Source: Odiellus spinosus (lineage: Eukaryota; Arthropoda; Arachnida; Opiliones; Phalangiidae). Taken from it: 64,000 nt of DNA. Positions 24,547-50,082 of this stretch are shown piece by piece (the first letter of the stretch is position 1; every line of letters starts with the position of its first letter). Both the position numbers and the translations under genes were made by a program. Where the stretch lies: positions 4,494,601 to 4,558,600 of the forward strand of contig OY987237.1 in assembly GCA_963920705.1 (NCBI GenBank), in the 5' to 3' direction. The notes beneath the pieces were generated by a model. That model had not been told where the DNA came from and made no database searches. It saw nothing but the letters and a program-made list of their open reading frames with translations.

Positions 24547-24746
24547 TATGCGCATTTTAAAAATAAAAGAGGCGAAATCATCGTTAATTCTTGTAAACAT
24601 AAGCTAAACATTTAGCAGACCGCAGCTGATCCAGCATCGTCTCAATTTCTCTATCGTGAATTGATAACGAGATACGTATATAAATACACGGAAACCGACA
24701 TCTAATAATTACTCTTCTTGAATTGCTCTTGGAAGGAACGCGACTG
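24547..24746 (+). promoter_or_regulatory. Conserved promoter block and 5' non-coding exon, EF-hand gene 1
   Basis: Most diverged member of a block shared by all six cluster genes: GTTAATTCTTGTAAAC, a CAGACCGCAGCTGATC box, an ATTGATAA (GATA-type) site, a TATA box at 24677-24685, then a short leader ending at a splice donor at 24747. The acceptor at 24851-24852 joins it to the coding exon ten bases before the ATG. Confidence 0.75.
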
Positions 24747-24861
24747 GTAATACCTCACTATTTCTTATTTACTTATTTTTAGCTACACATATATTTATAT
24801 ACATATACATACATATGTATGTACATATAATTTCACCTACAAACATTTCCAGTTGTGGACC

Positions 24862-25344
24862 ATGAAGAACTTAACTCTGGCCCTAGCCCTGGTAGTAACA
24901 GTAGCGGTGCTTTTCCCAAGCCAGGTAGACAGCGAGTGCTGCAGAACTCAATGCGCTAATGACGTCTGCGAGGATTGCACTCCGACTACCCCCTGTTGAG
25001 GATATGGAAGTTGCAACATATTTTGCTGCGCTTGTAAATGCAGAACTGGCATAGGCTGTGAAAAATGTCGAAATTCTATAATGGAATTTATCCACAACGT
25101 TTTCTTCGGAAAAGAAGATGTAAAAGACAAAGAAGTTGACCACGCCGCGGACACGAGACAGTACTTGAACCAACTAATTGGCGCTTACGACCAAACCGGT
25201 GACGGTTCTCTGAATCTACAAGAGGTTCAAAAGTGGTGGTCGGTCGAAAATAAAGGAAGAAGAGGGGTCAACGTTGAAGTCGAATTTCGAAAGCTCGATA
25301 CGGACAACAACGGAAAATTGACCAAACGAGAAATTGATCCATAA
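24862..25344 (+). pseudogene. Secreted Cys-rich/EF-hand protein 1, in-frame TGA at a conserved Cys codon
   Basis: Reads from MKNLTLALALVVTVAVLF (signal peptide) through the Cys-rich domain and both EF-hands to EIDP, 160 sense-length codons, with one interruption: TGA at 24997-24999 in TPC*GYGSC. The intact paralogues have TGC here (PCCGYGKC). Otherwise the frame is uninterrupted. EF-hand 1 is DQTGDGSLNLQE and EF-hand 2 is DTDNNGKLTKRE; both have complete Ca-binding loops. As translated the product would stop at 45 residues. A single C-to-A change explains this, so a young pseudogene or null allele is the simplest reading. Selenocysteine or readthrough would be required for function, and no SECIS-like element was apparent downstream. 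It is most similar to gene 6 in having extra sequence (RTGIGCEKCRNS) before the EF-hands. Confidence 0.8.
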
Positions 25345-26475
25345 ATAAATTGTAAAAGAAAACAATAAATAATAATCAGAATAATTCGAAATTAAATTGG
25401 CTTTGATTGGTTTATTTATAGTTGCATTTTCTTCTTATCGGCACTTTTCAAATTTATTTTATAACTTACAAGATCACTTGTTTGCGGTAAAATTCGTTTA
25501 GTCGAAATTTTGATTCCTAAAAGAAACTCAAAAGCTGTTCCATTTCGAGCTCCAAGTTTCCATTTAAAAAATAGGCAATTATTTATCTTTTTTAAATTCG
25601 ATCCACCCAAAATTAGCTCAGAATCAAGAGGGCAGAATTCCATATTTAGATTGTTTCACGTTTTCAATCGGAGCGTGATCGGATCAAAAGGAGAGTGTGT
25701 TCATCTATGGACACGGTTTTGTTCATGGACAATTTAACTTAACCGGGAGGGGTTAGGTGCCCCCCCCCCCCCCATAGATAAATACGTAAACCAAATAGAC
25801 AAATTCATAAATTCACAAAGATAAAAGTGAAAGTAAAGCCCCGTTTTCAATCAAGTTTTTCAAGCTTCTGCTTTCGCTTTTCCAAGAGAAGCTGATAACG
25901 TAACACGTGGGTTAAACGAAAAGCTTGATTTAAGCCTCACCTTTGATTTGACGCAACATCTCGATTCTTGGCCAAAAAAAAAAAAATAAATAAATAAAAT
26001 AAAAATAAAATAAAATAAAAATAGTTATGTAGAAGCTACAGGGCGTCTAGCCTCCAAGTAGAGTTGCCTGTTAAGATTGTTTTGGCCAAGAATTTAGTTT
26101 TTACGTCAAAACTAAGATATATTCACATTGGTTTTGACGCGTAAGCTAGATTCTTGGCCATCAAATCTCTGGTTGAACGGAGGGGTTTGTAGGTAGGTAA
26201 GCGGTTTGCAAAACAGCGTTTCCCAGTTCAGCATGTGTCAAAACAGCGGTGTCTTAGAACATCGATTGTCAAAATAAACACACACCGCCAAGCATTGAAG
26301 TAAACTATATACTATTCGTATAGTATGTTCCATTCCAGCAGGACTATTTCTCTCTTCAACGTGGGAGTTGCCAAATAATATTTAATTCTGTATATGTTAT
26401 TATATCTTAAAAGAAAAAATAAAATATAATTCACGTGAATTTGAAATAGTCGCGAGATCTAATTTTTAATTTAAG
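25345..26475. other. Intergenic, dispersed repeats between EF-hand genes 1 and 2
   Basis: Contains AATAAA signals near 25365 and a 14-C run (25760-25773). An A-rich simple tract lies at 25974-26020. A module with AAGCTTCTGCTTTCG (25862) and one with AGAAGCTAC-GGGCGTCTAGCC (about 26031) recur beside the other paralogues (27010/27550, 38815, 41490/41730, 43950/44165), marking segmental duplication. No gene was recognised; the frame at 25510-25737 has no known domain. Confidence 0.6.
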
Positions 26476-26711
26476 CATAGAGACTTTTAACATAGGGAGT
26501 GCAAAGTAGAGGCGAAGATGTAGCTCAAAACAACCGTTGTAAAAGGCCGGGTCAATTTCCGGTATAGCATCCCTCTAATGCGGGTGACGTCATGAGACCG
26601 AAAGTTGGCCAGACCAGTTATAAGCATTGGCAAAGGTTGCTTGGGGAGCTACATCTCGTTTTGCCTTGCCAAAGGCATGAGTTTCCACTCCCTTTGTTAA
26701 AAGTCTCTATG
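26476..26711. mobile_element. MITE, 236 bp, with 7-bp target duplication
   Basis: Terminal inverted repeats CATAGAGACTTTTAACATAG and TTGTTAAAAGTCTCTATG (continuing with GGGAGTG/CACTCCC) are flanked on both sides by ATTTAAG (26469-26475 and 26712-26718). The related uninserted sequence at about 40790-40830 shows one continuous copy of the flanks, which confirms insertion. A truncated end of the same family occurs at 38881-38905. Confidence 0.85.
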
Positions 26712-26718
26712 ATTTAAG

Positions 26719-27240
26719 TAACCATATCGATCCACCGAAGAAGGGCCTCGGTTCAAAACGTCTCGTAAAAAACGTTTTCTATAAATACCGTATTGTTTTC
26801 TATGTAAAAAAAAAAACCCCATAATTTCTACTCCATTTTTAACCACGGTAAAAGACAAGTTTAATGAAAATTAAATAACAATTCAATAAGAAGCCACACT
26901 CCGAGAGGGCATGTTGACCCTCCCCAAATCTTTAACGAAATCCCCAAATCTCTATAGCACACACACTACACGCTACAATATAGTAGCCAATACCTCCCTA
27001 GGGGTTTTCAAGCTTCCGCTTTCGCTTTCCCCAAGAGAAGCTTATATCAAATCAATTTAATATATTAAATTCGTTCTGTTACTTGAAGCCTGATAACGTC
27101 CAGGTTAAACGAACAGCTTGATTTAAGCTTCACCTTTGATTTGACGCAAAGGGTTGATTCTTAACCAAAAAATCTTCATTGAAAACTCGACTTAAGGGTC
27201 AAGCCCTATCTTGGGTAAGAATATGAAATACCGGTGGTGC
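26719..27240. other. Duplicated intergenic segment
   Basis: Contains the AAGAAGGGCCTCGG...AACGTCTCGTAAA motif (26745) that also occurs at 40830-40880, and an AAGCTTCCGCTTTCG module (27010). The sequence CCCATAATTTCTAC at 26818 is the empty site of the element at 40914-41102. No gene seen. Confidence 0.6.
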
Positions 27241-27247
27241 ATTATAC

Positions 27248-27539
27248 CAAGAAGGATCAGATAAGGAGAGGAAAAGTGGGAACGGCGCGGCTCCTACTGT
27301 GTCGGCCTAAACTCCCACTCTGGGAGAACGGGGGACAGACGGGGGTAGAGATGCTTCGTGGTAAATTGTTGTCACGTGGGTAAAACGAATCCTTTATGAG
27401 ACGCGCTAGCTAGCGACCACGTGACAACAGTTTACCTCGAGAATTTCCTATCCCCCCTTTCCACCCGAGTGGGAGGTTGGCTCTTCTCTCTCTAACTCAT
27501 CGCAGCCCCACTTTTCCTCTCCTTATCTGATCCTTCTTG
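27248..27539. mobile_element. MITE, 292 bp, CAAGAAGGATCAG ends, 7-bp target duplication
   Basis: Terminal inverted repeats of about 33 bp begin CAAGAAGGATCAGATAAGG and end CCTTATCTGATCCTTCTTG. Flanking duplication ATTATAC at 27241-27247 and 27540-27546. Segmental paralogues at about 41710 and 44156 lack the element. A second copy of exactly the same length, in the opposite orientation, lies in an MFSD12 intron (62825-63116). Confidence 0.92.
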
Positions 27540-27546
27540 ATTATAC

Positions 27547-28081
27547 TTAGGTAGAAGCTACACGGCGTCTAGCCTCCAACTAGGGTTGCCTGTTAAGATT
27601 TTTATGGTCAGCAATTTAGTTTTTGCGTCAAAGCTAAGGTAAATTCACATTGGTTTTAACGCAATGGTTGGAAACTGGGCTTTACCCAAGGTGGAAGGAG
27701 TCCCCATTCGCTCATAATTCTCTGTAGCAATTTACGAATCTGACTAAATTGAGACCAAAATGGTAAAATGAGATTCAAATTTTGACCAATGAAAAACCAA
27801 ACCTTCGTCATCACTCTTCATTTATCTTATTTTAAGAACTTTGTGGCGTTATCTTTCGAAAAAGATTTTACCTCAATAATCTTTAGAATTAGTTGCGAGA
27901 AATTATATTATTTGTAAGAATTCTTTCTTTCGCGGGAAGTTTTTTTTTTGTATTATTTTGACCAGGATGTTAATTAGAAAAATGCAAACTATTGAGATAT
28001 TCCCCGTAATGATTGAAAACAGGGTATTTTACTCTTCGCTTACTCTTAAGAAATTCAATACTTTAAAAAACAATTCTACGA
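27547..28081. other. Upstream flank of EF-hand gene 2
   Basis: Segmentally duplicated: the stretch around ACCAAAATGGTAAAATGAG and ATTCTTTCTTTCGCG recurs upstream of genes 3, 4 and 5 (about 38900, 41900 and 44430). No coding exon recognised. Confidence 0.6.
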
Positions 28082-28272
28082 GATACGAATTTTAAAATTG
28101 AACGAGCCGAAATCATCGTTAATTCTTGTAAACGTACGCTAAACATTCAGCAGACCGCAGCTGATCGTCTAAAAAAACGCTATCACGCATTGATAAGAAT
28201 AAACATATATAAACAAGGAGACCAGCCTCTGAAAATATTCTTCTCGAATAGTTTTTGGAAGGAAGGCAAACG
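28082..28272 (+). promoter_or_regulatory. Conserved promoter block and 5' non-coding exon, EF-hand gene 2
   Basis: Contains a CATCGTTAATTCTTGTAAAC forkhead-like site, CTAAACATTCAGCAGACCGC, an E-box CAGCTG, ATTGATAAGAATAAAC (GATA type) and a TATA box ATATATAAAC (28205-28214). The leader exon ends at a GT donor at 28273. This block is nearly identical to that of gene 3. Confidence 0.85.
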
Positions 28273-28717
28273 GTAAATACCTCAATATTTGTTATTTAAA
28301 TATTTTTAACTCCGCTAGTTATTACTTAATGAATTTTTGAATTATCATTTGAAAGAGGTTATTCACTTCAAAATTAATTTATATTTCTATTATTTTAAAA
28401 ACAAAATATACTATTTTCATTAAAAAAATTAGTCTTATAAAGTTTTGACGCAAAGGCTAGATTATTGACCAAATAATCTTGATTAAAAACGCGACTTAAT
28501 TACCCTTAAAATTGAACGATTCTTCAAAGCTCTTGAATGTCGTCTTCTTCGCGCGTGATAAGCCAATCATGGCCAGAACACACGGTTAATACACGATTTA
28601 AAATATGACTTTAAAATTTTTAGGTCTAATTATACGCAACTATATCATCATTTAGAAATTATGAAACTAGATTTTTTATATCGCAATTATTTCCTAGAAA
28701 ACTACATCCGCTTCATC

Positions 28718-29176
28718 ATGAAGACCCTATTTGTCGCGCTAGCGCTGGTTATTGCCGTAGCCGTGCTTTTCCCTGACCAAGTGGAGAGTGTGTGCTGTAA
28801 TTCTTGCAGAAACAAATGCATGGACAACACTGTCGCGACGCCCTGTTGCGGGTATGGAAAGTGCAACGTATTTTGTTGCAATTGCGATGGAGGATGCAGA
28901 GGGTGTAGAAATTACTCTTTGATTGGATACATTCGCAACATATTCTTCGGAAAGGATGAAAATGAAGTTGATCCCGAAGCAGAGTCTATAGAGTACGTGA
29001 ACGAATTAATTGAAACTTACGACCAAACCGGTGACGGTGCAATGAATCTACAAGAGTTTAGAACCTGGTTGTCATTCAAAAGTAAAGGAAAAGGCGGGCT
29101 CAACGTTGAAGCTGAATTCCGAAAACTCGACACGGACAACAACGGAAAATTGACCAAACAAGAAATTGATCCATAA
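28718..29176 (+). CDS. Secreted Cys-rich/EF-hand protein 2
   Basis: 152 residues from the ATG at 28718. This start is preferred over an in-frame upstream ATG at 28661, because an acceptor at 28696-28697 just before AAAACTACATCC and alignment of all paralogues place the upstream codons in the 5' intron. Residues 1-23 form a signal peptide (MKTLFVALALVIAVAVLFPD). Residues 25-62 contain 12 cysteines (CC, C, C, CC, C, CC, C, C, C), which probably form disulfides. After a linker come EF-hand 1 (DQTGDGAMNLQE) and EF-hand 2 (DTDNNGKLTKQE), both with complete ligand positions 1, 3, 5 and 12. The protein ends in EIDP. The product is predicted to be extracellular and calcium-binding. I recognise no named family with this layout. 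It is one of six same-strand tandem copies. Confidence 0.88.
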   Translation: MKTLFVALALVIAVAVLFPDQVESVCCNSCRNKCMDNTVATPCCGYGKCNVFCCNCDGGCRGCRNYSLIGYIRNIFFGKDENEVDPEAESIEYVNELIETYDQTGDGAMNLQEFRTWLSFKSKGKGGLNVEAEFRKLDTDNNGKLTKQEIDP

Positions 29177-30675: not shown

Positions 30676-31346
30676 TATCTATAGTAGGATCCAACCTTGG
30701 AAAGGGTAACTTTTAACACCTCAGCTAGAGTTGTAACCCTACTCCGCGCGGAACGGTACAACAACACCATGCTAAATAGTTCCAGCCCGCGGTTTTTAAA
30801 TGTTAAGATCTTGGCGTGAAGATTTATCCTATAACAGAGGGGGGGGGGTTTCCATTTGGATGAGTTTTTTTAAACCCTAGATAATCTGGTTTAGTTGCTG
30901 TTTTATGCAATGAATTTTATTGGTTTAATTAATTTGTTACTAAAACACAAAATAACTTAGATTTAAATTGGTAATAAAATTTTTTATTACCAATATCCAT
31001 TGTCGCTAAGCCTAAGCCAAGTCTTAACTTTATTTAAAATATACCGAAGGCGAAGTCCGAAACGTGACCTTGCTCTCCCAGCGATAAAAAAAAGGCGAAA
31101 GAAAGCCGAAGGGCGAATATTTCCTCGTGCGTGGTCGCGCTCGATTCGCCTCGTGAGCTCTTTCTCTACGGCGGGAGGCTTTCCCCCACCGATTGACTTC
31201 CCCTTCCCGGCGCTTTTTAAAATAGTACAAGTTAAAGTAGTATAGGCTCTATTTATTATGGTCAATTTTGTATCGTTCCACGCGAAGTACAATTTTACGA
31301 GGGCGTTAAAAGTTACCCTTTCCAAGGTTGGATCCTACTATAGATA
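30676..31346. mobile_element. MITE-like element, 671 bp, ~42-bp terminal inverted repeats
   Basis: The ends TATCTATAGTAGGATCCAAC and GTTGGATCCTACTATAGATA pair exactly, and the pairing runs inward through CTTGGAAAGGGTAACTTTTAAC with few differences. The interior has a GC-richer stretch (31040-31210) whose overlapping frames on both strands have no recognisable domain; a 10-G run lies at 30840-30849. No transposase. Confidence 0.85.
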
Positions 31347-32888
31347 TTATATCAAAAATGTCTTTGCGAACAAAGACCCAGAAGGACATGTTATGGCCTT
31401 GAATGTCTGAAGTGACAGATATTTAATTTTCTTTTAAAACATTAAATTTAAATACAATTAAATTTTCTTTTAAAACATGAAATTTAAATACAATTAGATT
31501 TTCTTTTAAAACGAAATTTAAATATAATCACAATCTGGCACGATTTAGAGTTTCAAATTTCAATACAACTGATTTTATTCACTCGGAAATATTTAAGAAA
31601 AACATAACAGACGATTTTCTCCCATTGACGCTTAACATTAAATTTCGCTTGATTATTTTTCAGGGAAAACGTGTATTGAACTGTTATTTTTCAGTATAAC
31701 GTGAGTCCACTTTATGTTTTCTTAGTTTAACCCGAATTTCCACGACTCGCAATTGAACGGATCGTTAAAAATACTCCCGGTTTATTGGAATGGGTATATG
31801 ATAAAGGGAAATGTGTTTTTTAAAGCCCGTTTAAAGTCACCTTCTTTTCTAACTTAGCAGACGACGCAAACCATAACAATTTGTACTTTCAAAGCTATAT
31901 TGCGCGCGCGAGGGAAGAGAACTTCAAAGCGACGAATTTTAGAGCGGATAAGGTTTTTAAATAAATTGTAATACTTTCATTTTTCTTTTCATTAAAACCG
32001 TACAATTAAAATGATGATTTCCATAAGGGACCACTAATTAGTTATTAGGAGTTATAAAAAAAACATTATCCATGGATTAGGTTTGTTCGTTTGCAATCCA
32101 AATTAAAAATTAAAATATGGGGAATTTTTATTCCCTTTAAATTCCTTGTATAAGCATCCGTAAGCTAACATGAACGAATTGCCTCGACTAAAGTCGAGGA
32201 GTTGTAATAAAACATTATCCATGGATTAGGTTTGTTCGTTTGCAACCTAGATTAAAAATTAAAATATGGGGAATTTTTTTCCCTTTAAATTCCTTGATAA
32301 GCATTCATAAGCTAACATGAACGAATTGCCTCGACTAAAGTCGAACAGTTATAATAAAGCATTATCCATAGAAAACATTATCCAATTAAGGTATGAGATC
32401 AGATCATAGAACTTTGAGTCTAGCCTAAAGCCAAAGCTAAATTAAGTATATTTTTCTATCGAACGAAAAGTTTCCTTTTGTTTGACACGTAATCCCTGAA
32501 AAATAATCAAGCGAAATTTAATGTTAAGCGTCAATGGGAGAAAATCGTCTGTTATGTTTTTCTTAAATATTTCCGAGTGAATAAAATCAGTTGTATTGAA
32601 ATTTGAAACTCTAAATCGTGCCAGATTGTGATTATATTTAAATTTCGTTTTAAAAGAAAATCTAATTGTATTTAAATTTCATGTTTTAAAAGAAAATTTA
32701 ATTGTATTTAAATTTAATGTTTTAAAAGAAAATTAAATATCTGTCACTTCAGACATTCAAGGCCATAACATGTCCTTCTGGGTCTTTGTTCGCAAAGACA
32801 TTTTTGATATAATATCTGTCACTTCAGACATTCAAGGCCATAACATGTCCTTCTGGGTCTTTGTTCGCAAAGACATTTTTGATATAAT
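31347..32888. mobile_element. Foldback element, ~325-bp inverted arms, repeated right end
   Basis: Arms 31347-31676 and 32493-32813 are close inverted copies with ends ATTATATCAAAAATGTC / GACATTTTTGATATAAT. The right end is followed by a second direct copy of its last ~73 bp (32816-32888, CTGTCACTTCAGACATTC onward) and the start of a third. The interior contains two direct ~150-bp copies (about 32048-32200 and 32205-32345) sharing ACATTATCCATGGATTAGG and GCCTCGACTAAAGTCGA. No coding capacity. Confidence 0.85.
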
Positions 32889-32939
32889 ATCTGTCACTTC
32901 AGTCTAACACGAAAGTGTTAACTTCTATATTAAAAGACT

Positions 32940-35400
32940 AGCCCTTTAAAAAGTGATTCAGTCAAATCTCTACATTTTTACCATTGCCCTTTAAACCCAA
33001 TTAAAATTATTTTTTTTATTATTTTTGATGTTAATAGCTGGGGCAGCCGCACTTGATTCAGTCAAATCTCTACATTTTTACCATTGCCCTTTAATTCCAA
33101 TTAAAATTAATTTTTTCATTATTTTTGATGTTAATAGCTGCGGCAGCCGCACTTGATTCAGTCAAATCTCTACATTTTTACCATTGCCCTTTAATTCCAA
33201 TTAAAAAAAATTTTTACATTATTTTTGATGTTAATAGCTGGGGGAGCCGCACTTGATTCAGTCAAATCTCTACATTTTAACATTGCCCTTTAATCCCAAT
33301 TAAAATTAATTTTTACATTATTTTTGATGTTAATAGCTGGGGCAGCTGCACTTGATTCAGTCAAATCTCTACATTTTTACCAGTGCCCTTTAATCCCAAT
33401 TAAAATTAATTTTTACATTATTTTTGATGTTAATAGCTGGGGGAGCCGCACTTGATTCAGTCAAATCTCTACATTTTAACATTGCCCTTTAATCCCAATT
33501 AAAATTAATTTTTACATTATTTTTGATGTTAATAGCTGGGGCAGCTGCACTTGATTCAGTCAAATCTCTACATTTTTACCAGTGCCCTTTAATCCCAATT
33601 AAAATTAATTTTTACATTATTTTTGATGTTAATAGCTGGGGCAGCCGCACTTGATTCAGTCAAATCTCTACATTTTTACCATTGCCCTTTAATCCCAATT
33701 AAAATTAATTTTTACATTATTTTTGATGTTAATAGCTGGGGCAGCCGCACTTGATTCAGTCAAATCTCTACATTTTTACCATTGCCCTTTAATCCCAATT
33801 AAAATTAATTTTTTCATTATTTTTGATGTTAATAGCTGCGGCAGCCGCACTTGATTCAGTCAAATCTCTACATTTTTACCATTGCCCTTTAATTCCAATT
33901 AAAAAAAAATTTTACATTATTTTTGATGTTAATAGCTGGGGGAGCCGCACTTGATTCAGTCAAATCCCTACATTTTAACATTGCCCTTTAATCCCAATTA
34001 AGATAAATTTTTTCATAATTTTTGATGGTAATACCTCCGGCAGCCGCACTTGATTCAGTCAAATCTCTACATTTTTACCATTGCCCTTTAATCCCAATTA
34101 AAATTAATTTTTACATTATTTTTGATGTTAATAGCTGGGGCAGCCGCACTTGATTCAGTCAAATCTCTACATTTTTACCATTGCCCTTTAATCCCAATTA
34201 AAATTAATTTTTACATTATTTTTGATGTTAATAGCTGGGGCAGCCTCACCTGATTCAGTCAAATTTCAACATTTTTACCAGTGCCCTTTAATCCCAATTA
34301 AAATTTATTTTTTCATTATTTTTGATGTTAATAGCTGGGACAGCCTCACTTGATTCAGTCAAACCTCTACATTTTTACCAGTGCCCTTTAATCCCAATTA
34401 AAATTAATTTTTTCATTATTTTTGATGTTAATAGCTAGGGCAGCCGCACTTGATTCAGTCAAATCTCTACATTTTTACCATTGCCCTTTAATCCCAATTA
34501 AAATTATTTTTTTCATTATTTTTGATGTTAATAGCTGCGGCAGCCGCACTTGATTCAGTCAAATCTCAACTTTTTTACCATTGCCCTTTAATCCCAATTA
34601 AAATTAATTTTTACATTATTTTTGAAGATAATAGCTGGGGCAGCCGCACTTGATTCAGTCAAATCTCTACATTTTTACCATTGCCCTTTAATTCCAATTA
34701 AAAAAATTTTTTACATTATTTTTGATGTTAATAGCTGGGGGAGCCGCACTTGATTCAGTCAAATCTCTACATTTTAACATTGCCCTTTAATCCCAATTAA
34801 AATTAATTTTTACATTATTTTTGATGTTAATAGCTGGGGGAGCCGCACTCGATTCAGTAAAATCTCTACATTTTTACCAGTGCCCTTTAATCCCAATTAA
34901 AATTAATTTTTTCATAATTTTTGATGTTAATAGCTGCGGCAGCCGCACTTGATTCCAGTCAAATCTCTATATTTACCAGTGCCCTTTAATGCCAATTAAA
35001 ATTAATTTTTTCATAATTTTTTATGTTAATATCTCCGAGAGCCGCAGCGAAATCATTATATTTTCCCCATTGCCCTTTAAACCCAATTAAAATGAATTTT
35101 TTCATCAATTTTGATGTTAATATCTCCGAGAGCCGCAGCGAAATCATTATATTTTCCCCATTGCCCTTTAAACCAAATTTAAATTAAATTTTTCATCAAT
35201 TTTGATGTTAATACCTCCGACAGCCGCAGTGAAATCTTTATATTTTCCCCATTGCCCTTTAAACCAAATTTAAATTAATTATTTCAGCAATTTTGATGTT
35301 AATACCTCCGACAGCCGCAGCGAAATCTTTATATTTTCCCCATTGCCCTTTAAACCAAATTCCAATTAATTTTTTCATTATTTTTGATGTTAATACCTTC
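32940..35400 (+). repeat. 100-bp satellite array, about 24 units
   Basis: Units of 100 bp (some 98-101) share CTTGATTCAGTCAAATCTCTAC, CATTGCCCTTTAATCCCAATT and TTTTTGATGTTAATAGCTGGGGCAGCCGCA in turn. Units fall into variants (GGGGAGCCGC with ACATTG; GGGCAGCTGC with CCAGTG; AATTCC forms). A two-unit block around 33240-33440 is repeated exactly at 33440-33640, and a variant pair near 33140-33260 recurs near 33840-33960, showing higher-order duplication. The last four units (about 35030-35400) are a diverged subtype with CTCCGAGAGCCGCAGCGAAATC. No spacers or cas-like genes exist; this is not CRISPR. Confidence 0.95.
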
Positions 35401-38765: not shown

Positions 38766-39198
38766 CTAAGCCACGTGACTGATTGATTTCTAGAGCGCGG
38801 CCATTTAAGTAAAGCAGAAGCTACAGGGCGTCTAGTCTCCAACTAGAGTTGCCTGTTAACTGACATGTCTTGGCATAAACATAGAGACTTTTAACATAGG
38901 GACCAAAATGGTAAAATGAGATTCAAATTTTGACCAATGAAAAACCAAACCTTCGTCATCACTTTGTCTTAATTTATTAACTTTGTGGCATTATCTTTCG
39001 AAATTGATTTTACTTCATTAATCTTTAGAATTGGTTTCGAGAAATTATATTTTGTAAGAATTCTTTCTTTCGCGGGAAGAATTTTTAGTATTTTGACCAG
39101 GAATCCAGGATGTTAATTATTGAGATTTCCCTGTAATTATTGAAAATAGGGAATTTTACTCTTTCCTTACTCTTAAGAAATCCAATACTTTTTTACAA
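38766..39198. other. Upstream flank of EF-hand gene 3
   Basis: Segmental duplicate of the gene 2 upstream region (AGAAGCTACAGGGCGTCTAG at 38817, CCAATGAAAAACCAAACC at about 38935). It includes a truncated end of the 26476-26711 MITE family (38881-38905). No gene. Confidence 0.65.
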
Positions 39199-39390
39199 GA
39201 TACGCATTTTAAAATTGAACGAGCCGAAATCATCGTTAATTCTTGTAAACGTACGCTAAACATTCAGCAGACCGCAGCTGATCGTCTAAAAAAACGCTAT
39301 CACGCATTGATAAGAATAAACATATATAAACAAGGAGACCAGCCTCTGAAAAATATTCTTCTCGAATAGTTTTTGGAAGGAAGGCAAACG
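39199..39390 (+). promoter_or_regulatory. Conserved promoter block and 5' non-coding exon, EF-hand gene 3
   Basis: Almost the same sequence as the gene 2 block: GTAAACGTACGCTAAACATT, CAGACCGCAGCTGATCG, CACGCATTGATAAGAATAAA, TATA box at 39322-39330 and a leader exon ending at a donor at 39391. The acceptor is at 39605-39606. Confidence 0.85.
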
Positions 39391-39626: not shown

Positions 39627-40085
39627 ATGAAGACCGTATTTATAGCTCTAGAGCTGGTTATTGCCGTAGCGGTGCTTTTCACTGACCAAGTGGAGGGTGT
39701 GTGCTGTGGTGCCTCTTGCAATAAGTGTTGGGACAACACTGTCGCGACGCCCTGTTGCGGGTATGGAAAGTGCAACATATTTTGTTGCAATTGCGATGGA
39801 GGATGCAGATGGTGTAAAAGTTACTCTTTGATGGGATTCATTCGCACCACATTCTTCGGAAAGGATGAATGCGCAGTCGATCACGAAGCAAAGTCTAGAG
39901 AGTACTTGAACGAATTAATTGAAACTTACGACCAAAACGGTGACGGTGCAATGAATCTACAAGAAGCTAAAGCATGGTGGTCAGTCAAAAGTAAAGGAAA
40001 AGGTGGTCTCAACTTTGAAGCTGAATTCCGAAAACTCGATACAGACAACAACGGAAAATTGACCAAACAAGAAATTGATCCATAA
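39627..40085 (+). CDS. Secreted Cys-rich/EF-hand protein 3
   Basis: 152 residues. The start at 39627 aligns with the paralogues; upstream codons belong to the 5' intron. The signal peptide MKTVFIALELVIAVAVLF contains a Glu within the hydrophobic core where the other copies have Ala, which may weaken secretion. The Cys-rich domain again has 12 cysteines with the same spacing as gene 2. A 13th Cys occurs in the linker (GKDECAVD) and would be left unpaired or allow dimer formation. EF-hand 1 is DQNGDGAMNLQE and EF-hand 2 is DTDNNGKLTKQE, both complete. It is closest to gene 2, with which it also shares promoter and flanks, so this pair is the most recent duplication together with 4/5. Function unknown. 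Confidence 0.87.
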   Translation: MKTVFIALELVIAVAVLFTDQVEGVCCGASCNKCWDNTVATPCCGYGKCNIFCCNCDGGCRWCKSYSLMGFIRTTFFGKDECAVDHEAKSREYLNELIETYDQNGDGAMNLQEAKAWWSVKSKGKGGLNFEAEFRKLDTDNNGKLTKQEIDP

Positions 40086-40615: not shown

Positions 40616-40662
<47 letters not shown>

Positions 40663-40913: not shown

Positions 40914-41102
40914 GGCAATTTTGAACAACAGTCCCCGGACGCCATTCACTATATAACCTAACCTAACCTAACCTTACCTAAACCTTACGTAACCTAACCT
41001 AACCTAACCTAACCTAACCTAACCCAATGTTCACTTTTTGTGGGGAAAATAGAAAAATAAATAAAACAAAATGGCGTCCGGGGACTATTGTTCAAAATAG
41101 CC
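40914..41102. mobile_element. hAT-like MITE, 189 bp, carrying telomere-like CCTAA repeats
   Basis: Terminal inverted repeats of 33 bp, GGCAATTTTGAACAACAGTC / ACTATTGTTCAAAATAGCC, are flanked by the 8-bp duplication CATAATTT (40906-40913 and 41103-41110). The interior holds about a dozen CCTAA units at 40957-41024, slightly degenerate on the left. The paralogous site at about 26819-26826 has a single CATAATTT and no element. The 8-bp duplication fits the hAT superfamily. Confidence 0.88.
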
Positions 41103-41110
41103 CATAATTT

Positions 41111-42242
41111 CTACTATGCCTATATCTAAACCATGGTAAATAATAAATTTAATATATATTATATAATATATAAAAACCTTTCTCGCCGTTCGTTCCCCGG
41201 AATTCCTGGGAGATCATTCGCAGGAAGAAATATGTAGGGTTATATTTTCGCCAGAATGGGGCTTCCTTCAAAAGATTAAAGAAAAAAATAAAAATTAAAG
41301 AGGGCAAAAGTCTAGAAGTAAATCGCTGGCTCAAGGCTCCCACCAAAATCAGAATAATATTTTTGGGCAAAATGATACTTTTTACCATATAAATACCGCC
41401 AAATGATAAATATATAAACCAAATAGACAAATTCATAAATTCACAAAGAGACACGTGAAAGTAAAGTCACCGTTTTCAATCAGGTTTTTCAAGCTTCTGC
41501 TTTCGATTTTCCAAGAGAAGCTTATATCAAATATATTAATTTCATTCTATCACTTGAAGCCTGATAACGTTCGTTAAACGAAAAGCTTCACATTTGATTG
41601 GACGCAAAGGGTTGATTCTTGGCCAAAACAAATCTTGATTGAAAATGCGCCTTAAAGGTCAAGCCCTCTATCTTGGGTAAGAATATAAATGTCAACAGGC
41701 GACTAACGGTGGTGCACTATAGTTTGGCAGAAGCTACAGGACGTCTAGCCTCCAGCTGGAGTTGCCTCATGATTTACACGTATCTATTTCAATCAAGATT
41801 TTGTTTGCCAAGAATCAAAATGGTCAAAAAATAACTTGATCGAAAACTGGGCTTTACCTAAGATGGACGGCGTGCCACTTCGCGAATCTGTGTATTGAGA
41901 GCAAAATGGTAAAATAAGATTCAAAGACCAATAAAAGCAAATCTTCATCACTTTTCATTTATCTTAATTTATTAACTTTGCGGCGTTATCTTTCGAAATA
42001 TACTTCAATAGTCATTACAATTAGTTTCGAGAAATTAATATTTGTAAGAATTATTTCTTTGGCTTGAATATTTTTTAGTATTTTGACCAGGATGCTAATT
42101 AGAAAAACGCAGACTATTGAGATATTCCACGTATAATTATTGAAAATATGGTATTTTAGGGATAAAGTGCGAACCATACTTGCTTGCTTACTCTTTGAGA
42201 AACTCAATACTTATATATCCTATATAAAATAATTTATATTGC
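41111..42242. other. Intergenic upstream of EF-hand gene 4
   Basis: Segmental duplicate of 25800-26100 and 27560-28080: ACCAAATAGACAAATTCATA at 41419 matches 25790, and AGAAGCTACAGGACGTCTAG is at 41731. Site 41710 is an empty site for the 292-bp MITE. The minus-strand frame at 41149-41454 has no recognisable domain. Confidence 0.6.
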
Positions 42243-42437
42243 GAGATACGCATTTTTAAATCGAAATAGCCGAAAAATCATCGTTAATTCTTGTAAACGT
42301 ACGCTAAACATTCAGCAGACCGCAGCGGATCGTGTAAAATTCGCTATCACGAATTGATAAGAATAAACTTCTATAAACAAGGAATTCGGCCTCTGAAAAT
42401 TATTCTTCTCTAATAGTTTTTGAAAGAAACGCAAACG
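42243..42437 (+). promoter_or_regulatory. Conserved promoter block and 5' non-coding exon, EF-hand gene 4
   Basis: Shares TAATTCTTGTAAACGTACGC, CAGCAGACCGCAGC, ATTGATAAGAATAAAC and CTATAAACAAGGA with genes 2, 3 and 5. The E-box CAGCTG has become CAGCGG. The TATA box is the weaker CTATAAAC (42371-42378). Leader donor at 42438. Confidence 0.82.
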
Positions 42438-43004
42438 GTAAATACCTCACAATTTCTTATTTACTTATTTTTTGGCCCCGCTAGTTATTACTTATTGAAT
42501 TAGCATTTGAAAGGATTATTCAGTACAAAATTAATTTATATTTCAATTATTTTAAAATGAAAATAGACGAAGTTTTTAAGAAAGTCAATCGCGATAGAGC
42601 TGTTGAAGGCTGCCTTAAATAATAGGATTGGTCCGAATTTACCCTACGCTGAAATTAGAACCTAATCAAATAACTTCAGAATATAATTCAAACATTAAAA
42701 TGTCTGATAAACATTGTGGAAATACTATTTGATTCGTAATTTTGCGTGGAGATTCTGAAAATAATTTCAAAGGTTTCCCTTTATATAATTTAAATATAAT
42801 TGCCGCGTGTTCCGGCTAATGTTAAGTATGTCGTAGGTGATAAGCCAATCACGGCCAGAACACAAGGTTAACATACACGATTTAAAATTTGATTTCTAAA
42901 TTTCTACGTCTAATTATACGTAACTTTATCACCCTTTTTAGAAATTATGAAACTTGTTTTTCTTACATCGCAATTATTTCCTAGAAAACTACGTCGACGT
43001 AATT

Positions 43005-43475
43005 ATGAAGACCATATTTGTCGCGCTAGCGCTGGTTATTGCCGTAGCTGTGCTTTTCCCTGACCAAGTGGAAAGTGATTGCTGCGGTGCTAACGGCTGC
43101 GGGATTTGTTTGGACTGCACCACCACCTGGCTCTGTTGCGGGAAGGGACCGTGCAACATGTTTTGTTGCAATTGCGATTATGGATGTAGAAGTCGAAAAT
43201 CTCGAAACTCTTTGACGGCATTCATTTCCAACATTTTCTTCGGAAAGGATGAAAATGAAGTCGACCACGAAGAGCAGACTAGAGAGTACTTGGACGAATT
43301 AATTGAAACTTACGACCAAAGCGGTGACGGTACGATAAATCTACAAGAGGCTAAATTATGGTGGTCAGTTAAAAGTAAAGGAAAAGGCGGGCTCAACGTC
43401 AGCGTTGAAGATGAATTTCGAAAACTCGACACCGACAACGACGGAAAATTGACCAAACAAGAAATTGATCCATAA
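43005..43475 (+). CDS. Secreted Cys-rich/EF-hand protein 4
   Basis: 156 residues from the ATG at 43005; the acceptor lies at 42983-42984. Signal peptide MKTIFVALALVIAVAVLF. Twelve cysteines follow in a slightly different spacing from genes 2/3 (CC, C, C, C, CC, C, CC, C, C), as in gene 5, then a basic RSRKSRNS linker in place of the last Cys pair. EF-hand 1 is DQSGDGTINLQE and EF-hand 2 DTDNDGKLTKQE, both complete. A two-residue insertion (NVSVEDEF where the others have NVEAEF) lies just before EF-hand 2 and looks like a six-base local duplication. Predicted extracellular and calcium-binding; no named family recognised. Confidence 0.88.
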   Translation: MKTIFVALALVIAVAVLFPDQVESDCCGANGCGICLDCTTTWLCCGKGPCNMFCCNCDYGCRSRKSRNSLTAFISNIFFGKDENEVDHEEQTREYLDELIETYDQSGDGTINLQEAKLWWSVKSKGKGGLNVSVEDEFRKLDTDNDGKLTKQEIDP

Positions 43476-44727
43476 ATATGTATTCTGACAAATCAAACGT
43501 TGTTCGCTATTCGATCATTTAAAAGACGATAGAAAAATAAAATAAAACTATGATTCTTATTTTAGGTGAATTTAATTGATACCATAAGCCGATGATAGCA
43601 CTTAAGTAGGGCTGGTATTATATGGCCACATGACAGTTCCTACATACCATAAGGAGAGCCAACTCCGCCCTATGAAAGGTGGTTTTGGAAAAGCGACTAC
43701 AGCGTCTGTAACACGTAAAATATTTTTGCACTGTTGCGAAAAAGGTAGTTATGGGCCCAATCTACAGTTTTCACGGTGAAACATAACCTACATTCACACT
43801 AGAGGCTTTGTTTTCAATGTTCAAATAATCTTTTAAAGCCGATAATTACACTTTCCGACAAAGAACCTTGGCAGTTGACCGGGAATTTTAACAATTTGAT
43901 CCTTCCAAAATGGTTAAAAACGGTTTCAAAGTGTATAGAGTGCTTTCCAAGAGAAGCTTGTATCAAATTCATTTAATATATAAAATTCATTATGTCACTT
44001 GAAGCCTGATAACGTCCAGGTTAAACGAAAAGCTTCACCGTTATTGGACGCAAAAACTCGATTCTCGGCCAAAAAATCTTGATTGAAAACACGCCTTAAA
44101 GGTCAAAGCCCTAAATCTTGGGTAAGAACATAAATGTCAAGAAGCAACAAGCGGTGGTGCACTGCAGTAAGGTAGAAGCTAAAACGTCTCCAACTAGAGT
44201 TTCTTGTTAATTGACATGTCTATTCCTAAAGGCGCTTTTTCAATCAAGATTGTTTTGGACAAGAATTTAGTTTTTCCATCAAAACTAACGTAAATTCTCA
44301 TGTGTTTTGACGCAAAAACCAGATTCTTGGCCAAAAAAAAAATATTGATTGAAAACGTGGCTTTAAATACCCAAGATGGACGCGCGTGATTACCTCTGTA
44401 TGGAGTTTACGAATCTGACTATTGAGACCAAAATAGTAAAATAAGATTAAAATTTTTACCAATGAAAAACCAAATCTTTTCATCACCACTTTTCATTTAT
44501 CTTTCGAAATAGATTTTACTTCAATAATCAGAATAGTTTCGAGAAATTATTATTTGAAAGAATTCTTCCTTTCGCGTGAAGAATTTGTAGTATTTTGATG
44601 CTAATTAGAAAAATGCAGACTATTGAGATATTCCCTGCAATTATTGAAAATACATGTATAGTGGGAGCCTTATACTTGCTTACTCTTTAAGAAATTCGAT
44701 TCTAAATATTCGTATTTATTTTACGAG
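43476..44727. other. Intergenic between EF-hand genes 4 and 5
   Basis: Shared 3' flank (CATAAGGAGAGCCAACTCCG), the ACTTTCCGACAAAGAA MITE-like stretch, the AAGAGAAGCTTG module (43949), the empty 292-bp-MITE site (about 44156) and the AGATTCTTGGCC module. No gene seen. Confidence 0.6.
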
Positions 44728-44920
44728 ATACGCATTTTAAAATCGAAAGAGCCGAAAAATCATCGTTAATTATTGTAAACGTACGCAAACATTCAGCTAA
44801 ACATTCAGCCGATCGTGTAAAATTCGCTATCACGCATTGATAAGAATAAACTTCTATAAACAAGGAATCTGGCCTCTGAAAATTATTCTTCTCGAATAGT
44901 TTTTGGAAGGAACGCGAACG
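44728..44920 (+). promoter_or_regulatory. Conserved promoter block and 5' non-coding exon, EF-hand gene 5
   Basis: Same block as gene 4 but with TAATTATTGTAAACGTACGC and a shortened CATTCAGCCGATCG segment: the CAGACCGCAGCTG box is lost by a small rearrangement (CATTCAGCTAAACATTCAGC). GATA-type site and CTATAAAC TATA are kept. Donor at 44921. Confidence 0.8.
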
Positions 44921-45210
44921 GTAAATACCTCACTATTTCTTATTTACTTATTTTTTGGCCCCGCTAGTTGTTACTTAAGGAATTATCATTTGAAAGGCAT
45001 ATTCGCTAAAAAATTAATTTATATTTCAATTATTTTAAAATTCAAAGACACTTTTCATTAAAAAAAGGAGTCTTATAAAGCCTGGTTTTAAACCAAGATT
45101 TTTTGGCCACGAATCTAAATTTTTAAATTTCTAGTCTAACTATACCTAACTTTACCATCATTTTTAGAAATTACGCAACTACTTTTCTGATTTACTACGT
45201 CCACGTCATT

Positions 45211-45675
45211 ATGAAGACCATATTTGTCGCGCTAGCGCTGGTTATTGTCGTAGCGGTGCTTTTACCTGACCAAGTGGAGAGTGTGTGCTGCTATTCTAAC
45301 GGCTGCGGGGGTTGCGATGACTGCACCACAAGCACGCCCTGTTGCGGGAAAGGAAAGTGCAACATGTTTTGTTGCAATTGCGATAATGGATGCAGAAGTC
45401 GAAAATCTCGAAACTCTTTGACGTCATTCATTCGCAACATATTCTTCGGAAAGGATGAAAATGAAGTCGATTACGAAGAGCGGACTAGAGAGTTCTTGGA
45501 CGAATTAATTGCCACATACGACCAAAGCGGTGACGGTACGATAAATCTACAAGAGGCTAGAGCGTGGTGGTCAGTCAAAAGTAAAGGAAAAGGCGGGCTC
45601 AACGTTGAAGCTGAATTTCGAAAACTCGACACCGACAACAACGGAAAATTGACCAAACAAGAAATTGATCCATAA
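45211..45675 (+). CDS. Secreted Cys-rich/EF-hand protein 5
   Basis: 154 residues: signal peptide 1-24 (MKTIFVALALVIVVAVLL), twelve cysteines between residues 26 and 61, basic linker RSRKSRNSL, EF-hand 1 loop about 104-115 (DQSGDGTINLQE), EF-hand 2 loop about 140-151 (DTDNNGKLTKQE), C-terminus EIDP. Both loops have all side-chain ligands. It is closest to gene 4. The usual splice acceptor (CCTAG before AAAACTAC) is deleted upstream of this copy; an alternative TTTTTAG at 45161-45167 could be used instead. No named family recognised; a secreted calcium-binding role is inferred only from domain layout. Confidence 0.88.
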   Translation: MKTIFVALALVIVVAVLLPDQVESVCCYSNGCGGCDDCTTSTPCCGKGKCNMFCCNCDNGCRSRKSRNSLTSFIRNIFFGKDENEVDYEERTREFLDELIATYDQSGDGTINLQEARAWWSVKSKGKGGLNVEAEFRKLDTDNNGKLTKQEIDP

Positions 45676-47150: not shown

Positions 47151-47345
47151 GGCTTTGAGAGGTGGAGTTATTCCTTGGGCTTGGAGAGGTGGAGTTATTC
47201 CTTGGGCTTTGAGAGGTGGAGTTATTCCTTGGGCTTTGAGAGGTGGAGTTATTCCCTGGGCTTTGAGAGGTGGAGTTATTCCTTGGGCTTTGAGAGGTGG
47301 AGTTATTCCTTGGGCTTTGAGAGGTGGAGTTATTCCTTGGGCTAT
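47151..47345 (+). repeat. 27-bp minisatellite, 7 copies
   Basis: Unit of 27 bp containing TTTGAGAGGTGGAGTTATTC and CTTGGGC, almost identical across copies. It stays open in several frames on both strands only because 27 is a multiple of three. There is no start context, no signal for a gene, and no homology to the neighbours. Confidence 0.95.
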
Positions 47346-47489
47346 GAGTTGGTTCACAGTAATATTCCTTAAATTTTTTTTATAAATTCCTGCCTCAATT
47401 AAATAAATGAAAAATTATACCAAATCTTCTCTTATATTCTAATATTTCGTCTTCTTAAGTTATTGGAAAGCCATATTTCTTGTTTATGA

Positions 47490-47725
47490 CATCTTTATGG
47501 ATAACTTTTTCACGTTCGAACCTTCTTCCGTTGTTGTCCTTATCGAGTTTTCGGAATTCGTCTTCAACGTTGAGACGCATCCTTTTCCGCAAACCACTTT
47601 GGAACATCTTCCGAGTTCAACATACCATCACGGATTTTTGCCGTACCGTAAATTAGTTCGTTGAAGTATTTTCTAGCCTCATCCTCGGCTCCTTTGTCCA
47701 ACCATACGAAACGTGTTATAAACTT
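47490..47725 (-). pseudogene. Decayed, inverted seventh copy of the EF-hand gene
   Basis: The minus strand reads EDEARKYFNELI, then MLNSEDVPKWFAEKDAS, then after a frameshift NVEDEFRKLDKDNNGRRFEREK. These align in order with the linker, EF-hand 1 region and EF-hand 2 (NVEAEFRKLDTDNNGKLTKREI) of the six plus-strand copies. EF-hand 1 has lost its loop ligands, a frame change separates the halves, and no Cys-rich or signal exon was found beside it. It is the only member in the opposite orientation. Confidence 0.85.
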
Positions 47726-47840
47726 AGACTTTAATAACCAGTGCCTCTATCGCGACAGTTTTTACATTAGCCTTGTGGGAAGGAGAGTTATGTATGGGAA
47801 AATGGAATTTACCTAGAGTATATGAAAATCCTCCCTATAA

Positions 47841-47972
47841 TACCCTTTTCAGACGAGGCGTAATTCGCCGGTTTAATAAGATTTAAACGAGATTTATTGA
47901 ACTTGAAGGCTATTTGTAAATCTCGGTTAAACCTGATTAAACCGGTTAATTACACCTAGTCTAAACAGGGTA
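47841..47972. mobile_element. Short MITE-like inverted-repeat element, 132 bp
   Basis: Ends TATACCC and GGGTATA pair, as do CGCCGGTTTAAT and ATTAAACCGGTT and the inner GATTTAAACGAGATTTA / TAAATCTCGGTTAAACC. The structure folds along almost its whole length. No coding capacity. Confidence 0.65.
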
Positions 47973-48101
47973 TAAGAATATCGATCTGGAATGATTGCAT
48001 TGATTGGTATACAAATCCGCATCCGTGAGCAATCGAGGCGGCGAGTGGAGCAGGGTATGGAATGGAAAAATTTCGGGAGGGGGGAGATAAGACATACTCT
48101 T

Positions 48102-48150
48102 AGCATGGACTAATTATAGTATACACTATATACTATAATTAGTCCATGCT
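48102..48150. repeat. Perfect 22-bp palindrome, 5-bp loop
   Basis: AGCATGGACTAATTATAGTA plus TA at 48102-48123 is exactly reverse-complementary to 48129-48150. CTCTTA-like sequence occurs on both sides, as in the hairpin insertion at 29481. Confidence 0.9.
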
Positions 48151-48649
48151 CTTAGGGATGGTTTTTTCATACTCTTGAATTTACATATGAACGTCCCCAA
48201 TTTGGGAGTCCTAAGAAATAGTCGACATCTATAAGCAGAATTGTGAAATTAGAGTCGCATGCACTCCCGCACTAAGCATTGATGGTTTGGTCAAATATAA
48301 TCTTAAGATCCGTAGTCCGGATTTCGGTCAATTTGGTGGGAATTTCCGGCACACATAGTAACAACTGGCTCGTTTAAAGGTATGGTATTTCTCTTCTACA
48401 AAGTTTAGCCAATAGGAGGCGTTCTCCCGGAAGAAATATTCAAGGTTAACATAAGCGCATTCTTCAAAACTAATCTTCAGTGTTTTTCTGATAATAAACG
48501 CTCTCTTATTTTTAAAGAAATCGCTGTCTAAATAAAAAAAAATTTAAGCTGTGTATCTTATTATTTTATTGATGATTTTGAACTTCTCTTATAATACACT
48601 ATAAAATAAATTCAATACTTATTCATATTCCTATATAAAATAATTTATA

Positions 48650-48842
48650 ACGCGAGATACGCGATTTAAAATCGAACGAGATGAAAAATCATCGTTAATT
48701 CTTGTAAACGTACGCTAAATATTCAGCAGACCGCAGCTGATCGTCTAAAATTCGCTATCACGCATTGATAACGATAAACGTATAAAAACACGGTGACGGG
48801 CCCCTGAAAATTATTCTTCACGAATAGTTTTCGGAACGAACG
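48650..48842 (+). promoter_or_regulatory. Conserved promoter block and 5' non-coding exon, EF-hand gene 6
   Basis: Contains CATCGTTAATTCTTGTAAAC, CAGCAGACCGCAGCTGATCG, CACGCATTGATAACGATAAA and TATA box TATAAAAAC (48781-48789). Leader exon ends at a consensus GTAAGT donor at 48843; the acceptor is at 49560-49561. Confidence 0.85.
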
Positions 48843-49581
48843 GTAAGTACCTCACTATTTCTAATTTAATATTTAGATATCATTTTAAATTTTAATTATT
48901 ATTGGTAATCAAATCTAAAATAAATTTATTTTTGAAATTTATGCTTCAAAATTAGTCATTTTTTAAGAAAATAAATAGAAAAACATTAACGGGATAATTC
49001 AATCTAAAAACAAGTGATGTTTTATCGATTCCTTATCGTGTAAATTAAATACGTCTAATACACCAGTAACAAAAACTACAGACAAATATTAATTTAGAAC
49101 GGAAAATTAACTTGGATTCACGGATATCCTGAATTTATTCGTATTGACCATTGAGCAAAAGCCCGTTGTTAAGGCGAGATCTCTTATGAGACTTCCAATA
49201 ACACTCGATTGGTCGTTGACCCTTCAATACGAAGAAATTCAAGATCTCCATGAATCCAGCTAAGCTTATTTTACAGTAGGTTTAAAATTTATTTCGAGTT
49301 TAATATTTTATTTATTGGTAGATTTATTTAAACGATCAGGAATCGACAAAAAAAAAAAAATCACTTGTTTGTAAGGTTGCATTCTCCCTTTGACTCCAAA
49401 AACTAAACTTCTGCCACGGTTTTAATTAATAACTTTACTTCGGCCGCGAAAACAAGTCGATACTTTATTTCTGTGGATTCTATTTCACAGAAAGTAATAT
49501 TCGAGTATTTTTATTTTTCATTTTACTAACTACTTTTTTTATATCGCTATTAGTTTCATAGAAAACTACATCAGCGTCATC

Positions 49582-50082
49582 ATGAAGACCGTATTTGTCG
49601 CGCTAGCGCTGGTTATTGCCGTAGCTGTGCTTTTCCCTGACCAAGTTGAGAGTGTGTGCTGCCGCGCTCCATGCCCAAGAATGTGCAACGACTGCACCAA
49701 GCCCACTCCCTATTGCGGATATGAACCGTGCAATATACTTGGCTGTGACTGCCCAGAGGTTCCCGGAAAGGGAGCGTGCAGAACTGGCGTTGGCTGTAAC
49801 AACTGTCGAAACTCTTTCATGGCATTCATTCACGATCTTTTCTTCGGAAAGGAAGATTTAAAAGAAATTGAAGTCGATCACGAAGAGGAGTCCAGAAAGT
49901 ACTTGGACGAATTATTTGACACTTACGACCAAAGCGGTAACGGCGCTTTGAGTCTACAAGAGTTCAGAAAATTGCTGTCGGTCGTAAATAAAGCGGTAAA
50001 AGATCAGAACGTTGAAGCTGAATTCCGAAAACTCGACAGAGACAACAACGGAAAATTGACCAAACGAGAAATTGATCCATAA
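49582..50082 (+). CDS. Secreted Cys-rich/EF-hand protein 6
   Basis: 166 residues. Signal peptide MKTVFVALALVIAVAVLF. The Cys-rich domain is longer than in genes 2-5, with a Pro/Gly-rich insert (CPEVPGKGACRTGVGCNNC), yet it still has exactly twelve cysteines; one of the CC pairs reads YC. The extended form resembles gene 1, so genes 1 and 6 at the two ends of the cluster represent an older subtype. EF-hand 1 is DQSGNGALSLQE, with Asn at position 5; EF-hand 2 is DRDNNGKLTKRE and complete. A linker LKEIEVDHEEESRKYL precedes the EF-hands. Intact, with consensus splice signals for the 5' non-coding exon. Family unknown. Confidence 0.88.
   Translation: MKTVFVALALVIAVAVLFPDQVESVCCRAPCPRMCNDCTKPTPYCGYEPCNILGCDCPEVPGKGACRTGVGCNNCRNSFMAFIHDLFFGKEDLKEIEVDHEEESRKYLDELFDTYDQSGNGALSLQEFRKLLSVVNKAVKDQNVEAEFRKLDRDNNGKLTKREIDP

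Follow-up and report, generated by a model that had tools for sequence, protein, structure and literature searches.

The window analysed here is a 64,000-nucleotide (nt) stretch of the opilionid Odiellus spinosus (GenBank assembly GCA_963920705.1, contig OY987237.1; G000:C15:4494601-4558600 in our numbering), inside a 443-Mb genome of 286 contigs. It contains a cluster of six plus-strand gene copies, g1 to g6, which start at 24862, 28718, 39627, 43005, 45211, and 49582, share pairwise identities of 56–85%, and very probably combine a module like SD2 of the insect protein Diedel with a pair of EF-hands. Five copies are intact: g2 (28718–29176, 152 amino acids [aa]), g3 (39627–40085, 152 aa), g4 (43005–43475, 156 aa), g5 (45211–45675, 154 aa), and g6 (49582–50082, 166 aa), the last being the most divergent and carrying an insertion within its Cys-rich domain. 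An earlier reading made from the letters of the window alone (the sequence-only reading) had described signal-peptide-like starts, a Cys-rich domain, and two EF-hands, and this layout was borne out for the five intact copies, with the N-termini judged by eye. The even core count of 12 cysteines that it gave held for the mature parts of g2, g4, g5, and g6, but not for g3, which has 13. It had also counted six same-strand genes; six copies are indeed present, but g1 (24862–25344) is interrupted by an in-frame TGA at 24997. This codon occupies the second Cys position of a C-C-G motif, is TGC in g2–g6 (5/5 aligned codons), and is followed by a complete coding sequence for the EF half. Selenocysteine at this TGA was considered and rejected: a selenocysteine insertion sequence was absent from the 11 Rfam matches (E ≤10, 24990–28000), a distant or unusual element being possible. 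Therefore, g1 is most simply read as a broken or null copy, probably a pseudogene or a null allele. A decayed relic of an EF half, inverted, frameshifted, and spread over two frames, lies on the minus strand at 47509–47686.

The EF-hand half was readily assigned. With 37.9–41.1 bits, every intact copy exceeded the 25.4-bit cut-off of the Pfam EF-hand profile (PF00036), and the intact window copies thus show both marks of the EF-hand superfamily, namely, two loops with canonical ligands and a profile score over the cut-off. The ligand letters are canonical in both loops, the second loop of g4 being read from the alignment, as it falls outside the spacing rule of our loop script. Asn at loop position 5, an accepted ligand at that position of EF-hands, had been thought peculiar to g6; in fact, loop 2 reads D-x-D-N-N-G in g2, g3, g5, and g6. 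In an AlphaFold2 model built from a six-sequence input, residues 71–129 are folded as two units of helix, loop, and helix, each loop bearing short strands, and the ten-residue means of the predicted local distance difference test (pLDDT) are 65–82 there, compared with 31–40 over the Cys part; an earlier model with a mean pLDDT of 41.8 was not used. From its loops, the EF pair likely binds calcium. The general description of these proteins as tandem duplicates that are secreted, rich in cysteine, and, by their loop letters, calcium-binding was supported.

For the Cys-rich half, the relevant known protein is Diedel, an insect cytokine-like protein with homologs published from insect DNA viruses. 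According to the Diedel structure paper (PMC3307722), SD2, the half that is conserved across the family, comprises the first four mature residues plus loop 60–89, with four disulfides, two of which tie the loop to the N-terminus; in Asn77-Ile78-Phe79, the Asn is a strictly conserved brace, Ile78 and Phe79 are exposed, and this hydrophobic loop is the binding site that the authors propose. When the Cys halves of the window copies were scanned against Pfam, Diedel was the sole family listed for four of the five intact copies (7.6–13.6 bits). A search of PDB sequences with the Cys half of g3 returned the Diedel chain 3zzo (E 2.2e-4), followed by three viral protease chains at E 0.5–0.6, and the paralog L019 from contig C6 gave Diedel as its one match (E 4.1e-6). 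A profile of 11 Cys domains (A5), compared with all PDB sequences, had Diedel as its sole match up to E 10 (E 3.2e-6). Searching the O. spinosus genome with the Pfam Diedel model gave nine matches, four of them over the cut-off and all four on C6 (23.3–29.3 bits; 24.6 bits for L019 by hmmscan), and the same search gave matches in 0 of 14 control genomes. All nine begin at profile position 25 or beyond, and a complete Diedel was not found in this genome, the first 24 positions of the model never being covered, although introns could hide one. The window proteins carry the SD2 core and a hydrophobic tip after Asn, reading VF in g2, IF in g3, MF in g4 and g5, and IL in g6; over 20 aligned rows, the tip ends in F in 17 cases and is II in two and IL in one, and the preceding residue is N in 18 and D in two. 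They keep the CC at the mature N-terminus and the SD2 loop, while the part that intervenes in Diedel is gone: the stretch from CC to the loop is just a few residues long, with no sign of the ferredoxin-like subdomain SD1. The Arg-Gly-Asp (RGD) motif was likewise not found in the sequences scanned, that is, the five intact copies, the g1 piece after the stop, and the bacterial protein of Tahibacter soli described below. Judging by sequence, we read the Cys domain as an SD2 without SD1, and we hold the identification of the two modules, a Diedel SD2-like domain and an EF pair, to be highly probable.

Two pairs of cysteines in this domain vary jointly. The 20 rows compared consisted of 17 copies from the O. 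spinosus genome, two bacterial proteins, and the Diedel fragment, and 19 of them include the N-terminus. In the first pair, the Cys that precedes C-G occurs together with the Cys immediately following the tip in 9/20 rows, and both are absent in 11/20; in the second, 17/19 rows have both a doubled Cys at the N-terminus and a second Cys beyond the tip, and 2/19, namely, the bacteria, have neither. On the tree, the first pair requires at least three joint changes by hand count (g6 versus the other window copies, C2a/b versus their neighbours, and once between the two main groups), with several forks being weak, and the second pair requires one. Therefore, two disulfides are predicted, one of which would join the loop to the N-terminus as in Diedel, with few independent events behind the prediction.

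The family extends well beyond the window. A protein search of the O. spinosus genome gave 17 matches, six of which are the window copies, and a search with the Diedel family added three loci on C1, making at least 20 loci in total, including the broken g1 and L016, which lacks its 5′ part; a further weak match at C2:14307188, which has a stop, was left out of this count. Outside the cluster, members occur at six places: C15 at 11.6 Mb, C2, C11, C6, C17, and C1. With mutual identities of 56–85% in the window and recurrence of the family at 14 further genome loci, the copies exceed chance, and the family is real and expanded, with both halves of known kinds. The Cys and EF halves lie in a single frame in L009, L010, L011, L012, L015, L018, and L025–L027, and are separated by a predicted GT-AG phase-1 intron between a Cys exon and an EF exon in L013, L016, L017, L019, and L014. 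A phase-1 intron at such a boundary commonly signals that modules of extracellular proteins have been shuffled. In L013, L016, L017, and L019, the four copies on C6, the Cys exon closes with R-x-K-R-S, a furin-like motif; as a lead, cleavage there might free an SD2 peptide from the EF half. The sequence-only reading had recognised no named family. This holds for the combination of SD2 with an EF pair, which is unnamed in Pfam, NCBIfam, the PDB sequences, and the literature searched, but not for the halves, which are EF-hands and a Diedel SD2. In the portions of the literature on Diedel, EF-hands, venom, horizontal transfer, and Tahibacter that were covered, no SD2 and EF-hand combination was found, and Diedel and EF-hands were unconnected. 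The family is also limited neither to this cluster nor to animals, as it occurs at the 14 other loci and in two bacteria.

The presence of the family in bacteria was the surprise. When 84,980 genomes of bacteria and archaea were scanned with two short patterns, 62 stretches came up and a single one was confirmed, in T. soli; this narrow scan is the sole coverage of phyla beyond that of Tahibacter, and it did not return the second bacterial genome, G151, although the G151 core fits the pattern, so that it may miss members or not include them. The T. soli protein (L002, 4995–5516; 173 aa) and the G151 protein (L030, 1450–2028) both have a signal-peptide-like start, an SD2-like core, and an EF pair, in the same order as in the window proteins. 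T. soli and g3 are identical at 50 of 159 aligned positions (31%) and at 22 of 32 in the Cys core, and when all residues other than Cys were shuffled, the observed score was reached in 0/1000 shuffles for the T. soli half against Diedel; when the five window halves were compared with T. soli in the same way, the count was 0/600 for every one of them. The G151 protein is 49% identical to that of T. soli over residues 14–168. Searching the genomes of its order with the T. soli protein (E 1e-8) recovered T. soli and G151 out of 398; the Cys profile recovered the same two from the T. soli family (2/233) and from a family sample around G151 (2/197), and T. soli from a phylum sample (1/398). In these samples, members are rare and confined to one family; T. 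soli belongs to Rhodanobacteraceae. The full T. soli protein had no match in plasmids at E 0.01, nor did its Cys half in phages at E 1. Among viral sequences, pattern A1 gave 0 confirmed of 29 stretches in a scan that had no positive control and likewise missed the published viral Diedels, and a degenerate DNA core pattern found nothing in viral_contigs, again with no positive control and hence little weight. Pattern A2 gave one candidate among 15 stretches, L001, which was rejected as a nine-residue chance match within a larger unrelated protein. Near the T. soli gene lies an AIPR-domain protein (L002, 1157–2875; Pfam 7.3e-30) with a low third-position GC content (GC3) of 0.479; its composition invites the guess that it was recently acquired.

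A phylogenetic tree was constructed from 19 rows, 17 from the O. spinosus genome and two bacterial, leaving out g1 (stop), L016 (5′ part missing), and L027 (almost identical to L026). On a long branch (1.92), the two bacterial proteins fall into a group that also holds L009 and the window cluster (support 87/86), with the fork drawn open. The tree does not give the direction of transfer; the rarity of bacterial members favours transfer from an animal, in a comparison that contains no other animal genome. A more far-reaching possibility is that SD2 is a self-standing, transferable extracellular ligand module, present in insects and, as published for Diedel, in DNA viruses of insects, and joined to EF-hands in this animal and at least two bacteria. 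Its gene would then have crossed between animals and bacteria, and the bacterial protein might target the surfaces of animals or the animal protein those of bacteria; we regard this as speculative and rather doubtful.

The sequence-only reading had further proposed a constant EF half beside a diversifying Cys half. In raw amino acid change this stands: the nonsynonymous rate (dN) was higher in the Cys half than in the EF half in 10/10 pairs of the five intact copies. The synonymous rate (dS), however, was also higher in the Cys half in 9/9 pairs with a defined value, and in the sister pairs dN/dS was alike in both halves (g2/g3, 0.37 for Cys and 0.46 for EF; g4/g5, 0.73 and 0.66). It exceeded 1 in the Cys half of one pair (g2/g5, 1.09), was undefined in g3/g6, and was above 1 for no pair in the EF half. 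These values do not support selection for a diverse surface; the pattern would follow equally well from alignment effects or from homogenisation acting locally on the 3′ half.

Overall, our best explanation, which we consider fairly probable as a whole, is that the window genes encode small secreted proteins built from an SD2, lacking both SD1 and RGD, and an EF-hand pair. The signal-peptide-like start would direct secretion, after which the largely even number of cysteines would allow disulfide closure into a compact SD2 fold presenting an Asn-braced hydrophobic loop, N-[I/V/M]-F, equivalent to the proposed binding loop of Diedel. The EF pair would bind calcium outside the cell and serve as a rigid, calcium-dependent stand, and the protein would then work through the SD2 loop as a soluble extracellular modulator or ligand, with defence or tissue signalling as its likeliest setting. 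SD2 is the probable contact surface because the hydrophobic tip is conserved; that the proteins act as ligands through this loop is, as a functional proposal, still tentative. Diedel is reported to act as an RGD-dependent integrin ligand (PMC9116668), and this route is unlikely for the window proteins because RGD is missing.

Several points weigh against this reading, beginning with the Diedel assignment. The window copies stay under the Pfam Diedel (PF13164) cut-off of 21.3 bits, the highest score being the 13.6 bits of g5, and g6 has no match; of the five paralogs scanned, L015 (16.6 bits) and L018 (10.5 bits) are also under the cut-off, and L012 and L014 have no Diedel match up to E 1. The PDB match to Diedel alone is weak for g6 (E 0.068) and for the T. 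soli half (E 0.049), and the bacterial Cys pieces gave no Pfam Diedel match (up to E 10 for T. soli and only up to E 0.1 for G151). Furthermore, the equivalence of the N-terminal CC is positional, with no alignment across the missing SD1; neither AlphaFold2 model resolved the Cys domain; the structure paper counts four SD2 bridges at two points in its text but three in the Discussion (PMC3307722); and the motif of the published RGD-integrin mechanism is missing. Together with the shortness of the shared core (~30 residues), the low Pfam scores could be taken to indicate convergence, in other words, a coincidence of Cys spacing instead of homology with Diedel. Yet when the cysteines were fixed and all other residues shuffled, the observed Diedel score was reached in 0/2000 shuffles for each of g2–g6, and with Cys-Cys pairs scored as zero in 0, 0, 0, 0, and 1 of 2000 for the five intact copies, values uncorrected for the choice of the Diedel fragment, which was picked because it matched. 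As the A5 profile also finds nothing else in the PDB up to E 10 and the C6 paralogs exceed the curated cut-off, convergence appears very improbable. Still more remote is the explanation that the bacterial genes are animal DNA contaminating bacterial assemblies. Their rarity, 2/233 genomes of the family, would fit it, but the T. soli gene lies within a contig of 1,005,070 bases among bacterial-type open reading frames (ORFs), one of them AIPR by Pfam, in one uninterrupted frame, and its GC3 is 0.908, compared with 0.801 in a nearby ABC-transporter-like ORF and 0.44–0.49 in g2–g6. The G151 genome, from the same family, carries its 49% identical protein with a GC3 of 0.698, next to an ORF with a GC3 of 0.689, presumably an isocitrate lyase/phosphoenolpyruvate mutase type enzyme.

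Two further explanations accept the module identity and differ on function. The proteins could be effectors in saliva, venom, or a defensive secretion, directed at another organism and built with recruited Diedel-like parts. Tandem duplication and the Cys-rich secreted format would suit such a role, and Diedel-like proteins are reported in the setae of processionary caterpillars (PMC11335235) and in venom particles of Leptopilina heterotoma (PMC11944595). However, the family also occupies six other places in the genome and has no dN/dS sign of diversifying selection, the caterpillar proteins are described as Diedels with 10 cysteines and an added helix, with no EF-hand mentioned in that passage (PMC11335235), and the wasp venom passage has no domain detail (PMC11944595); we consider this role unlikely. 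Alternatively, the proteins could serve in calcium storage or as structural components of cuticle, silk, or matrix, the SD2 resemblance reflecting only a stable scaffold. Compatible with this are the full ligand sets of the EF-hands and the net charge of the whole protein (K+R minus D+E), which runs from −4 to −10 across g2–g6, but single-residue runs never exceed three in these five copies, no repeated segments were seen by eye, and the conserved hydrophobic tip would be needless for scaffolding alone, which makes a structural role distinctly unlikely. A calcium-stabilised, secreted SD2 and EF-hand ligand remains our best guess.

Upstream of each of the six coding sequences lies a conserved block that contains TATAAA, a GATA word, and, 116–740 nt before the ATG, a GT resembling a splice donor. 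The blocks are located at 24526–24746 (g1, donor at about 24746), 28052–28272 (g2), 39170–39390 (g3), 42217–42437 (g4), 44700–44920 (g5), and 48622–48842 (g6), all on the plus strand. Conservation and the GT alone point to a likely non-coding first exon within each block. Each also contains one copy of the 23-nt word AATCATCGTTAATTCTTGTAAAC, at 24576, 28111, 39228, 42276, 44758, and 48687 (+), 94–103 nt ahead of TATAAA; it is the same in five of six blocks, with a single change in g5, and includes what we take to be a forkhead-like word. In the one dispersed paralog tried, L009, nothing resembling the block was found at better than E 0.096. Pieces of carboxylesterase-type genes flank the cluster on both sides on the minus strand (10632–12400 and 50837–53873); the piece at 10635–11540 is Pfam COesterase (9.4e-68), and the others were assigned by likeness. 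Between the two coding pieces of the right-hand esterase sit ORFs that we presume to be mariner-type transposase-like, at 52133–52684 (−) and 52655–52942 (+), the former with no Pfam match at E 0.1. An inverted repeat at 31342–32817 (333-nt arms, 99% complementary, 810 nt apart) is followed by a 100-bp satellite of ~25 copies at 32954–35395. At 40954–41024, ~4.5 Mb into a contig of 17.2 Mb, TAACC is repeated 14 times, a unit equivalent to the arthropod-type telomere repeat TTAGG. A hairpin-like segment at 26081–26161 scores 36 bits to mir-590, against a gathering score of 65, and has a 71% complementary arm at 44239–44339. Finally, 387–4085 is an open frame of 1232 aa with ~18 copies of a 30-bp repeat and no Pfam family over the cut-off.

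In this family, SD2 stands apart from SD1 and RGD, the suspected binding loop is retained, a calcium module is added, and members extend to bacteria; the family makes SD2 testable as a binding domain on its own, and represents a rare case of a disulfide-rich module common to animals, viruses, and bacteria. Among the known systems closest to the window proteins is Diedel (Drosophila CG11501; PF13164; PDB 3zzo/3zzr), which is likewise secreted, with two mature N-terminal cysteines, a hydrophobic tip after Asn, and the common core C-x-D-...-C-G-x-G-x-C-N-[IVM]-F-x-C-N-C-D-G-G-C. Unlike Diedel, they lack SD1 and RGD, have 12–13 cysteines rather than 10, and carry an EF-hand pair that Diedel does not have. 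The T. soli and G151 proteins share the three parts in the same order, but have a single N-terminal Cys, C-G-N-C where the window proteins have C-C-N-C, an intronless gene, and a Cys part with no Pfam family, and the T. soli protein has 10 cysteines. In SPARC/osteonectin (PF10591), a Cys-rich region also precedes an extracellular EF-hand pair; the SPARC Cys domain, however, is follistatin-like, and the window and paralog proteins stay under the PF10591 cut-off of 22 bits (13.3 bits in the best window copy, g6, and 17.3 bits in L018). The bacterial EF-hand proteins, such as NCBIfam XopAW, share the paired EF-hands, but in the three copies scanned the XopAW match is confined to the EF region and reaches 27.7–30.3 bits, against a cut-off of 120.

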